Below are positions 18,999 to 22,736 of a stretch of 64,000 nucleotides of DNA, piece by piece. A program made the position numbers and the translations under genes. The notes beneath the pieces are model-generated. The model did no database searches and was not told the DNA's origin. It saw only the letters and a list, made by a program, of their open reading frames with translations. The DNA lies in assembly GCA_030066085.1 (NCBI GenBank), contig JASJCI010000001.1, positions 1 to 64,000 on the forward strand. The letters are read 5' to 3'. This DNA is from Gammaproteobacteria bacterium (GTDB lineage: Bacteria > Pseudomonadota > Gammaproteobacteria > GCA-001735895). Within the stretch, counting starts at the first letter, position 1; the number at the start of each line of letters is the position of its first letter.

Positions 18999-19624
18999 AC
19001 CCGCTACAGGACCAGACCCTGGCCCTGGCGGGACTGTTTCAGGCCGCGGTCGAAACCGACAGCCTGGCAAGCGACGGTTTCTGCGATAGCACGGCGCTGG
19101 ACTGCAGCCTGGCCAGCCTGTTTCGTATCGAGGCCGAATCCACCGCGGCGGTATACGGCGACATTGGCGGACTCGGCCGCGGCCTGTCCGCGCTGGTCGA
19201 ATTCCTCGGCGGCCAGACCCGCAGCTCCGGACGCAACGTCTCCTACTACGTGCTGTCGATGCTGAAGCTCTCGCGTGCGCTGCTGCGCGACCGCTCGACG
19301 GCCGAAAACCTGCTCGAGGGCTTGCGCCAGATCGACAGCGCGGCGCGCGACTTCGGGCTCGAACGCGCCACCGTTATTGCCCGGGTCGACGGTCTCTACC
19401 AGCGCTGTATCAGTGGTATGCAGCCACGCATCATCGTACGCGGCGAGGCCAGTTTCCTGCGTGACGAAAACACCGCCATGCGCGTGCGCACGCTGTTGCT
19501 GGCGGGAATTCGCGCCGGGGTTTTGTGGCACCAGCTCGGCGGCAGCCGCTGGCGCCTGCTGTGGTCACGCCGCGATTATGTCCGCAACGCGCGGGCCCTT
19601 CTGCGTCGCGATCAGAACGCGTAA
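18995..19624 (+). CDS. hflD: High-frequency lysogenisation protein HflD homologue
   Basis: 209-aa all-helical DUF489 protein, peripheral to the inner membrane. In E. coli it follows mnmA and affects phage lambda CII. It has the family segments [17 protein letters not shown] and [13 protein letters not shown]. It starts with GTG at 18995 inside the mnmA stop (4-bp overlap). Its last 13 bp overlap the convergent phosphatase gene. The purB gene that follows hflD in E. coli is missing here. Confidence 0.92.
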
Positions 19625-20100
19625 CGTTCGCGGATGCGGGACAGCAGCCCCGTGGCTGCGCTGTCGATCAAATCGTAAACCCGTTCGAAACCGGCGTCGC
19701 CATAGTAGGGATCGGGCACCTCCATCTCGCCAACCTCGTCGGCAAAATCCAGCATCAGCGAAGCCTCCGCGCGCGGGTTATCCGGCCTGAGCGCGAGCAT
19801 GTCCGCGAGGTTGCCGCGATCCATGCCGATGACATAGTCGAACTCGAGAAAGTCCCGGCTTTCGAAACGGCGCGCGCGCTGGGTCGACAGGTCGACGCCG
19901 CGAGCCCGCGCGGTCGCCTGCGCCCGGGGATCGGGAGGTGTGCCAACGTGATAACCATGCGTGCCGGCCGAGTCGACCTGGATACGCGCCTGCAGGCCGT
20001 GGCTTGCCACCAGCGCCTCGAATATCCCGTGCGCGGTAGGTGAACGGCAGATGTTGCCCATGCAGACGAAGAGCACTCTAACGGGTTGAATGTCGCTCAT
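19612..20100 (-). CDS. Low-molecular-weight protein-tyrosine phosphatase
   Basis: 162-aa LMW-PTP. The catalytic P-loop CMGNICRS (CX5RS) is at residues 13-20 and the general-acid Asp is in VPDPYYGDAGF. Length is normal. These enzymes dephosphorylate tyrosine kinases and other substrates, often in exopolysaccharide control, but no capsule genes are nearby. The ATG at 20100 gives the usual N-terminus (SDIQPVRVLFVC). It is convergent with hflD and divergent from the HisA-like fusion. Confidence 0.92.
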   Translation of the reverse strand: MSDIQPVRVLFVCMGNICRSPTAHGIFEALVASHGLQARIQVDSAGTHGYHVGTPPDPRAQATARARGVDLSTQRARRFESRDFLEFDYVIGMDRGNLADMLALRPDNPRAEASLMLDFADEVGEMEVPDPYYGDAGFERVYDLIDSAATGLLSRIRERYAF

Positions 20101-20136
20101 AGGTAGAAAAGCTTCATTCTGAAACAAAAACGCGTC

Positions 20137-20201: not shown

Positions 20202-21425
20202 ATGCTCATCATTCCCGAAATTCAACTGCAGGACGGCAAGGTAGTTACCCGCTCATCGGTAGCCGGACAATCATACATTCACGATATCGAGCCGCAAGAA
20301 GCGCTGCGCAAGTTTGTTGCCGGCGGCGCGGAAATGATCCAGATTGTCGATGTCGACGCGGCCAGCGGTCACTCGACCAACAACGAGGCGTTGATCCGGC
20401 AGATGATCGACCAGACCGACATCCCGATCCAGGTAGCGGGCGGCGTCCGCACCCTGGTGCAGATCAACGACTGGTTCGAAGCCGGCGCCGCGCGAGTCGT
20501 GCTCGGTACCATCGCCATCACCGATGCCCCGCTGGTCGTCGAGGCTGCCAACCGCCATCCCGGTGGAATCATCGTGCACCTGGCAACGCGCGACGGTTAC
20601 GTCATGATCGACGGCTGGAAAACCCAGACCGCGTTCCAGGCCCAGGACCTGATCCGCGACCTGCAGATGACCGGTATCGCGGGTGTCGTGCACAAGGATA
20701 CCGAAAGCCTCGATATCGAATTTGCCGAGGCACTGGCGCTGACCGAGCAACTCAGCCATGACGTCTCGATCCCGGTTTATTCCAGCGGCACGGTACGCAC
20801 GCTCGACGACATTGCCCGCCTGCGCTACATGCCGAACATCAACGGTGCAATCGTCAGTCACGCACTGCTGACCGGCGAACTCGATCTCGAGGATGCGCTA
20901 CGGGTCGCGGCGGAAAAAGAAGTCAACCTCGAACCCGAATCGATCACGCGCAACGTCAACATGGGTATCCATCACGGCGTACGCGCATACCTCGCGGCCT
21001 ATAACAGTTCGCAGGCGGCACGGGTGTGGAACCTGCAGCTGCGCGAAACCCTGACCGAGGATAACCCCTACATGGAAATGCTGATTCCGCAGCACGACCT
21101 CGACCTGGATCTCGCCAGCATGTCGCGGCGCGAAATCCAGGCTGCCTACGAGTCCGAGCTGGATCGTGCAGACATCGTCGTGGTTGTGCTCGAAGGCGTG
21201 GAAGCCGAGGCCTGGACCGGGTTCGAATGCGGTTACGCGCGTGCCCACGGCAAGTACATTTACGGCATTACCTCGGACCATGCGCACAAACTGCCGAGCC
21301 AGACCCGCTTCGAGGCCATGTGCGACGAGATCATCGTTTTCACCCATGGTGACGACGTTACCAAGACGCACGCCGAAATATCGCACGCACTGGCTACGCG
21401 AGTCATGGTCAAGAACGCGGGCTGA
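20202..21425 (+). CDS. Fusion: HisA-like TIM barrel (catalytic Asp residues lost) + nucleoside 2-deoxyribosyltransferase-like domain
   Basis: 407 aa. Residues 1 to about 240 align by eye with HisA (ProFAR isomerase): IIPEIQLQDGK at the N-terminus, VDVDAASGH, IPIQVAGGVRT and GAARVVLGT. The two catalytic aspartates of HisA are replaced: the PAIDL position reads PEIQL (Q8) and the GLDARDG position reads HLATRDG (A128). The late SRDGT phosphate motif is also missing. Residues about 262-400 resemble nucleoside 2-deoxyribosyltransferases: RADIVVVVLEG, then GFECGYARAHGK with the likely nucleophile E342. No other his gene is near. Transcription probably ends at the strong terminator at 21441-21474. 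The function is unknown; it is not a normal HisA. Confidence 0.85.
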   Translation: MLIIPEIQLQDGKVVTRSSVAGQSYIHDIEPQEALRKFVAGGAEMIQIVDVDAASGHSTNNEALIRQMIDQTDIPIQVAGGVRTLVQINDWFEAGAARVVLGTIAITDAPLVVEAANRHPGGIIVHLATRDGYVMIDGWKTQTAFQAQDLIRDLQMTGIAGVVHKDTESLDIEFAEALALTEQLSHDVSIPVYSSGTVRTLDDIARLRYMPNINGAIVSHALLTGELDLEDALRVAAEKEVNLEPESITRNVNMGIHHGVRAYLAAYNSSQAARVWNLQLRETLTEDNPYMEMLIPQHDLDLDLASMSRREIQAAYESELDRADIVVVVLEGVEAEAWTGFECGYARAHGKYIYGITSDHAHKLPSQTRFEAMCDEIIVFTHGDDVTKTHAEISHALATRVMVKNAG

Positions 21426-21440: not shown

Positions 21441-21474
21441 AAAAAAGGGCCCGCTCGAAGCGGGCCCTTTTCGT
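21441..21474. terminator. Strong bidirectional Rho-independent terminator
   Basis: A perfect 9-bp stem, GGGCCCGCT (21447-21455) / AGCGGGCCC (21459-21467), with a CGA loop is flanked by six A and four T residues. It therefore works on both strands for the convergent genes ending at 21425 (plus) and 21497 (minus). Confidence 0.92.
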
Positions 21475-21496: not shown

Positions 21497-21820
21497 CTAG
21501 CCGTCGGGGTTGACACACTTGTAGACCATGAAGGTCTGCGCGCCCTCTTCGATCACGGTCAGCGGTACGATCGTATCGCCGCCCATGTTGGATGCGCTGT
21601 TGCGCGCAACTATGCGCAATTCCTTGGCAATGGTCTCTATCGGTCGGTCTATACCCATGACCTTCGCTGTCGTGGTGGTATTGGTGCGGCCCAGCTCGCG
21701 GCAGGTTTCGATCTCGGACGGATCCAGCACGCGCACTTTTTCGCCGCCCTCGTTGAGTTCGAGGCTCGCGCAGCCGGCAAGCGTTGCGAGTGCGGATAAC
21801 AGGATAATATTGCGATACAT
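21497..21820 (-). CDS. Small lipoprotein, DUF4156-like
   Basis: 107-aa protein with a lipoprotein signal peptide (YRNIILLSALATLAGC, lipobox LAGC) and a small domain containing SASNMGGDTIVPL and a C-terminal YKC. This resembles DUF4156 lipoproteins such as E. coli YjeI. It is expected in the periplasm, membrane-anchored; an Asp is not at position +2 (sequence CASLE), so outer-membrane sorting is likely. It is 22 bp downstream of the aldolase gene. Function unknown. Confidence 0.8.
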   Translation of the reverse strand: MYRNIILLSALATLAGCASLELNEGGEKVRVLDPSEIETCRELGRTNTTTTAKVMGIDRPIETIAKELRIVARNSASNMGGDTIVPLTVIEEGAQTFMVYKCVNPDG

Positions 21821-21842
21821 GTTTGCTCTCCCCTTGTTGGCG

Positions 21843-22736
21843 TCAGGTGTTCGAAGCCTGGAAGATACTCTCGATCGACGCGTCGAGCATGGCGTTGAAC
21901 TCGTCATCGCTCTGCTGCGCGCTCAGGCCCTCGGACAGCGCCCGCGAAAAGCTTGCAACCATGCCGTTCTGCCTTGCCAGGCGCTGGTTGGCCTCCTCGC
22001 GCGAGTAGCCGCCGGACAGGGCCACTACCTTGAGCACGTTGGCGTGTTCGATGCAGTCGCGGTAAAAGTTATCCTGTTCCGGCAGGGTCAGCTTGAGCAT
22101 CACCAGTTGACCGTCACCCAGGGCGTCGAGCTGACGCATCAGGGCCGACTTGAGTAACTCCTCGGTAGCCGCCTTGGCGGGGCTGTTGATGTCGACCTCG
22201 GGCTCGATGATCGGCACCAGGCCCGCGTCGACGATGCGGCGACCGATTTCGAACTGCTGGTCGACGACCGCGTCGACCCCGGCCGCGTTGTCGGTTTTGA
22301 TTACCGAGCGCATCTTGGTGCCGAAGACGTTTTTCGCTCGCGCACGCTGCAGCAGCACATCGAGGCCGGGCATGGGTTTCATGACCTGGGCGCCGTTCTG
22401 TTCATCGGCAAGTCCCTTGTCGACCTTCAGAAACGGCACAACGCGTTTGACCTGCCAGAGATAGTCGGCCGTCGGCTGCCCTTGCACTTCGCGGTCCATC
22501 GTGTTTTCGAACAGGATGGCACCCATGATCCGCTCGCCGGTGAAAGCCGGGCTGGTCATGATGCGGGTGCGCATGGCATGGACGAGGTCGAACATTTCGT
22601 CGTCGCCGGAATAGGCATCGGTCGCAACGCCGTAGTTGGCCAACGCCTTCGGGGTACTGCCGCCGCTCTGGTCGAGTGCGGCGATGAAACCGGGTAAATT
22701 GCGGATTTTATCGATTTGCTGATTAGTGTCTGTCAC
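21843..22736 (-). CDS. Class I fructose-bisphosphate aldolase
   Basis: 297-aa Schiff-base (class I) aldolase of the bacterial/FdaB type. It has [14 protein letters not shown] near the N-terminus, PIIEPEVDI and the Schiff-base lysine in [12 protein letters not shown], and [14 protein letters not shown] for phosphate binding. It interconverts fructose 1,6-bisphosphate with DHAP and glyceraldehyde 3-phosphate. It starts with GTG at 22736. The nearby ppsA and fumC fit a gluconeogenic setting but are not in one operon. Confidence 0.93.

Follow-up and report, generated by a model that had tools for sequence, protein, structure and literature searches.

A gene in the 64,000-nucleotide stretch of gammaproteobacterial DNA that we analysed (the window) joins a HisA-type barrel to a nucleoside deoxyribosyltransferase-type domain in one polypeptide of 407 amino acids. 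The barrel lacks all three of the aspartates that matter in HisA, and the second domain keeps the Tyr-Glu nucleophile pair of the nucleoside 2-deoxyribosyltransferases (NDTs) in an otherwise altered active site. The gene (20202..21425, + strand, with an ATG start and a TGA stop) belongs to a conserved family and is more than a chance joining. We propose, tentatively and with a probability of about 0.42, that a non-isomerising, phosphoribosyl-binding barrel is coupled to an N-glycosidase or (deoxy)ribosyl-transfer domain that would use Glu342.

The original prediction described this open reading frame as a HisA-like barrel followed by an NDT-like domain, and Pfam places both domains above cut-off: His_biosynth (PF00977) matches residues 3-227 with 148 bits (cut-off 23.6) and Nuc_deoxyrib_tr (PF05014) matches residues 263-362 with 42-45 bits (cut-off 28.8). 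The (beta-alpha)8 barrel takes up residues 1-240 (20202..20921, + strand) and the NDT/DNPH1-type domain takes up approximately residues 259-407 (20976..21422, +). Between them is a linker of low model confidence (approximately residues 241-258, 20922..20975, +; pLDDT <50). In NCBIfam, the nearest family for the barrel is HisA, and the barrel is well below every equivalog cut-off: for TIGR00007, the HisA equivalog, it reaches 148.4 of the required 228.95 bits and so falls 80 bits short, and for the HisA/HisF-related family TIGR00734 it has 23.2 bits (cut-off 179.85). The barrel is about 30% identical to HisA and has the same fold; its best match in the PDB, by Foldseek, is the HisA structure 5a5w (E 4e-18). 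A separate, true HisA adjoins HisF on another contig (C16) of the same genome, so the gene was rightly described as far from any his gene as regards hisA and hisF. Both families are known and the fold itself is not new; it is the architecture that is undescribed. A literature search, with subscription journals mostly outside its scope, returned no paper with both HisA and nucleoside 2-deoxyribosyltransferase, or with both PF05014 and PF00977.

The original prediction suggested a search for the same fusion across genomes. Within the window's order, we found it in 24 of the 31 genomes of the window's genus and in no genome of the family's two other genera. Full-length copies from 21 genus members were aligned and are 60-80% identical to the window's protein. 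The other three are incomplete: one (L021) ends at a contig edge, and two, from metagenome bins, have broken frames (L046:3626-4851 and L026:1501-2714). At the frame break in L046 there is a short direct duplication. The two broken frames could reflect assembly error or decay. The carriers are uncultured marine and sediment bacteria, including the Gamma 3 endosymbiont of Olavius algarvensis and metagenome bins labelled Gammaproteobacteria. We also found a full-length fusion in another gammaproteobacterial genus (L048, from genome G253), with 42% identity and in a different gene context. A small gene that adjoins the fusion in G253 (L048:546-983) reads, by eye, as a BLUF blue-light sensor domain. 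A profile of the C-terminal domain found no relatives beyond the genus and L048 in 398 genomes from the phylum and 369 from the class; plasmids had no full-length match, and phages and viral contigs had no match to the C-terminal domain. Across 49 pairs, dN/dS (Nei-Gojobori) had a median of 0.079 in the barrel and of 0.067 in the C-terminal half, values that indicate strong purifying selection on each half.

In HisA from Salmonella, three aspartates matter (D7, D129, and D176; PMC9088769), and a single change at D129 or D176 abolishes activity (PMC7591586). We compared the 21 homologues from the genus to 12 true HisA proteins, all of which have Asp at each of these positions. In place of D7, the window's protein has Q8 (codon 20223..20225, +), with Gln in 20 of the 21 homologues and His in the other. 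In place of D129 it has A128, the last of three strand-5 residues (H126-L127-A128, codons 20577..20585, +), and the homologues have Ala, Val, Ser, or Thr. In place of D176, the Asp of the loop-6 RDG motif, it has L170 (codon 20709..20711, +), and the homologues have Leu, Met, or Asn (21/21). The replacements at Q8 and A128 and the absence of the late SRDGT motif had been predicted; to this we add that three aspartates matter and that all are lost, with none aligning to those of true HisA. As changes at D129 or D176 abolish the activity of the Salmonella enzyme and a normal hisA is present, an isomerase role is not needed.

The phosphoribosyl ligand suggested for the barrel gains some support from the residues that the family has kept. 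R83 and S103 of HisA grip the distal phosphate (PMC9088769), and the equivalents of this grip (G80, G81, R83, G102, and T103) are kept in at least 20 of the 21 homologues. R83 (codon 20448..20450, +) is kept in 20 of the 21 and in all 12 HisA proteins, and the loop-5 Trp of HisA is kept in 19/21. The best PDB match, 5a5w, is HisA D7N/D176A with ProFAR bound, which shows that substrate binding by HisA can survive the loss of two of the acids. Together, the kept grip and this structure favour a phosphoribosyl-binding barrel. On the other side, genus members have changes in the second phosphate site (G197T, G219S, and R220H), of which L048 keeps the original G219 and R220.

The order in which the aspartates were lost can be proposed from the relatives. 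We found a standalone HisA paralogue (L049:1477-2217, from genome G394) that is 35% identical to the window's barrel and looks related to it. It is the sole clear standalone paralogue found in its order, with 200 bits; four other matches above the threshold had 140-147 bits. In a tree, the fusions group with L048 (100/97) and L049 joins next (99/99); the branches are long, which makes the deeper joins uncertain. Both L048 and L049 have E8, keep D129, and lack the loop-6 Asp (Phe in L048 and Tyr in L049), so on these sequences the loop-6 Asp was probably lost first and D129 was lost later, in the window's genus.

For the second domain, we aligned 12 fusions with 13 other NDTs. The original prediction was that the nucleophile Glu is retained, and this part stands: E342 (codon 21225..21227, +) is invariant in all of the fusions and all of the NDTs, and it is the equivalent of the nucleophiles E88 of CtNDT and E104 of DNPH1. 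Y263 (codon 20988..20990, +) is also invariant, with Tyr in 13/13 of the other NDTs, and is equivalent to Y7 of CtNDT, the tyrosine that positions the nucleophile (PMC12645435). Both residues are unchanged down to 42% identity (L048). What does not stand is an intact site. Position 316 corresponds to D80 of DNPH1, D62 of CtNDT, D72 of the L. leichmannii NDT, and N53 of TbNDT, by alignment and by the 8-residue spacing to the next Asp. This base/acid position is Y316 (codon 21147..21149, +) in 12/12 fusions, L048 included, and Asp or Asn in the other 13 NDTs (Cys in two of them). We considered D324 as the catalytic Asp and dropped it, as the spacing of CtNDT D62 and DNPH1 D80 to the Glu and to the next Asp points to Y316. 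W338 (codon 21213..21215, +) is Trp in 12/12 fusions where the DxGT motif has Gly (13/13 other NDTs). The sugar-binding Asp of that motif is not kept: position 336 is Glu, Thr, Lys, or Asp. The Pro after YLAG is Tyr267 in the fusions (Phe once). Tyr316, Trp338, and Tyr267 had all escaped the original prediction.

The catalytic triad of DNPH1 is Y24-D80-E104 (PMC10603095); in the fusion the Tyr and the Glu are kept and the Asp is Tyr316. The pH-rate profile of DNPH1 D80A is still measurable (PMC12751057), so loss of the Asp does not necessarily abolish activity. Judging from the aligned residues, the fusions keep the nucleophile pair in a remodelled pocket for base and sugar, and the active site is not intact. 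The suggested cleavage or transfer of a base or ribosyl group by this domain is thus plausible, given Glu342 and the NDT/DNPH1 fold, but it is not secured, given the loss of the Asp/Asn at 316 and of the sugar Asp at 336.

The C-terminal half was confirmed as a PF05014 fold rather than another family. A full-length model built with 21 close homologues had a pLDDT of 65.5 overall and was poor in the C-terminal half, so we modelled the C-terminal domain alone with 25 sequences (AlphaFold2), which gave a pLDDT of 88. Foldseek ranked the deoxyribosyltransferase from Desulfotalea (7o62) first for this model, and the VIA Z was 16.0 to 7m5h, 15.4 to 7o62, and 14.4 to DNPH1 D80A.

Compared to known proteins, the barrel resembles HisA (TIGR00007; PDB 5a5w and 5ahe) in its whole fold, the grip (G80-G81-x-R83 and G102-T103), and the loop-5 Trp, but it has no equivalents of D7, D129, and D176, it is away from the his genes, and it has a second domain. 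That domain shares the flavodoxin-like fold and the Tyr and nucleophile Glu of the NDTs (PF05014; Desulfotalea psychrophila 7o62, CtNDT from Chroococcidiopsis 8pqr, and L. leichmannii NDT), and it aligns to the Desulfotalea enzyme without gaps from the strand to the Glu. Unlike them it has Tyr316 for Asp/Asn and Trp338 for Gly, does not keep the sugar Asp, has Asp for an Asn in the C-terminal part, and sits behind a barrel. The fold, with the Tyr and Glu of the triad, is also that of the nucleotide N-hydrolases DNPH1/RCL and MilB, but there is no equivalent of D80, the identity is about 14%, and the fusion is a two-domain protein. A parallel in layout is a set of PfkB-NDT fusions from five Pseudomonadota genomes (L083 and L128-L131; approximately 405-436 amino acids), in which a phosphosugar-type domain is followed by an NDT domain. 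Their first domain instead resembles kinases of the ribokinase type (recognised by eye, from the region of the GSGD motif), and the NDT parts that we aligned (L083 and L128) keep the Asp. NDT domains fused to Abi N-terminal domains have been published (PMC3710099); we saw nothing resembling these near the fusion gene, and none of the PADLOC families (anti-phage defence) matched at E 0.1. The known his-gene fusions (hisIE, hisNB, hisHF, and hisIED; PMC1963479) likewise involve domains of the histidine pathway, and none of them joins HisA to an NDT domain.

The fusion gene looks like a single unit with no operon partner. On one side is a divergent gene for a low-molecular-weight phosphotyrosine phosphatase (19612..20127, - strand), and on the other side is a convergent gene for a DUF4156 lipoprotein-like protein (21497..21907, -); both are conserved neighbours. 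A strong terminator had been predicted, and we found a hairpin at 21443..21471 (+) with a 13-bp stem, -26.5 kcal/mol, and a z of -2.94. With its flanking A-run and T-run, it can serve both of the convergent genes. The predicted promoter is not supported: there is a single candidate with 9/12 matches, versus 0.5 +/- 0.8 expected, which is no better than chance. The conserved neighbours (MnmA, HflD, the phosphatase, DUF4156, a class-I aldolase, GST, SLT, and FumC) are general housekeeping genes, and none of them points to a nucleotide metabolism pathway. Two genomes (G009 and G010) have the DUF4156-aldolase side but lack the fusion in the next kilobase, so this otherwise stable site has either acquired the gene or lost it. 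In five genomes from the other genera of the family, nothing matched the class-I fructose-bisphosphate aldolase next to the fusion in the window (21843-22736) at E 1e-40. The Olavius Gamma 3 symbiont (L033:7207-10594) has about 3.4 kb between the fusion and DUF4156, compared to a few hundred bases at most in the others, and there the MnmA-HflD-phosphatase side does not adjoin the fusion.

Under the reading that we favour, a duplicated HisA would have lost its isomerase acids and become fused to an NDT/DNPH1-type domain. The barrel would perform no Amadori isomerisation and, through its distal-phosphate grip, would bind a phosphoribosyl-type compound. The second domain would carry out N-glycosidase or (deoxy)ribosyl-transfer chemistry with retention. 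Held in position by Tyr263, Glu342 would attack a nucleoside or nucleotide at C1' and release the base, and the (deoxy)ribosyl-enzyme ester on Glu342 would then be resolved by water or by an acceptor. Tyr316, Trp338, and Tyr267 may reshape the base and sugar pocket, in which case the substrate would be something other than an ordinary deoxynucleoside. The barrel may supply or gate the chemistry of the second domain. The invariant Tyr-Glu pair, the NDT/DNPH1 fold, and the measurable pH-rate profile of DNPH1 D80A favour glycosidase or transfer chemistry. Three observations count against the proposal: part of the usual active site has failed (positions 316 and 336), the housekeeping neighbours lend no support from a nucleotide-metabolism pathway, and the second phosphate site is altered.

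The main rival, which we consider less probable, is a two-site sensor or regulator in which each domain would bind a ligand and catalyse nothing. The barrel would read a phosphoribosyl compound, the second domain would read a nucleoside, a nucleotide, or an ADP-ribose-like ligand, and the output would go through a partner or allostery. Acid/base residues are gone from both domains while the scaffold and the ligand grips are kept, the gene has no operon partner, and the family has a narrow distribution and can be dispensed with by some relatives (as in G009 and G010), all of which would suit a sensor. The loss of acids from the two domains fits this rival no less well than the favoured reading. 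But E342 and Y263, the core of glycosyl transfer, would be unneeded for pure binding and yet are invariant to 42% identity, and neither Pfam nor NCBIfam finds an output domain or a DNA-binding part. At the other extreme, it is very improbable that the protein is a HisA that has diverged and gained a domain but still works: the barrel has the fold of HisA and about 30% identity to it, but we reject this reading because all three functional aspartates are replaced, a second, normal hisA lies beside hisF in the same genome, and the score is far below the equivalog cut-off. Even less credible is a decaying or mis-joined gene (a pseudogene or an assembly artefact). The frame is broken in two metagenome bins, but the gene is intact in at least 20 genomes from independent assemblies, mostly with the same neighbours, and this together with dN/dS of about 0.07-0.08 already refutes it.

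It is also possible, but in our view unlikely, that the barrel is an enzyme with a new site formed by Q8, H126, and K165 (for Asp, Gly, and Thr), such as a lyase or aldolase that would use the strand-6 Lys on a sugar phosphate released by the second domain. K165 (codon 20694..20696, +) is Lys in 20 of the 21 genus members and Arg in the other, where all 12 HisA proteins, L048, and L049 have Thr; H126 is kept in 20 of the 21, where nearly all HisA have Gly. The predicted model places residues 161-166 in a strand, and the strong purifying selection on the barrel would fit as well. However, the residue set is not family-wide (N126/T165 in L048 and T126/R165 in L025), and the weak match of the barrel to DeoC (E 3e-4) spans only residues 28-99 and misses the Lys. 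A two-step enzyme with two rebuilt sites is a long shot: Glu342 would strip the base or aminoimidazole from an unusual nucleotide, for example ProFAR or a ribotide that has been damaged, and the barrel would use Q8, H126, and K165 to process the freed phosphoribosyl part. An unidentified activity that converts ProFAR to phosphoribosylamine has been proposed in Salmonella (PMC3485032). If the two-step reading were true, cleavage of ProFAR would bear on that proposed activity, but the gene is not known from Salmonella.

We return to the glycosidase or transfer reading. The original prediction of a new enzyme of nucleotide metabolism or sensing was a reasonable class of guess, and the protein probably handles a sugar-phosphate or a nucleotide in a way that is not yet described. 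We did not find this architecture with its paired loss of acids in the literature that we searched or among the known his fusions. A duplicated HisA is a textbook model for the acquisition of a new role by an enzyme. In this case, all three of the HisA aspartates have been removed, the barrel is under strong selection, and it is coupled to a rebuilt glycosyl-transfer domain. Identification of the ligand would reveal either a new reaction in nucleotide processing or a new sensor of metabolites, and it would show what the HisA scaffold can become without isomerase chemistry.
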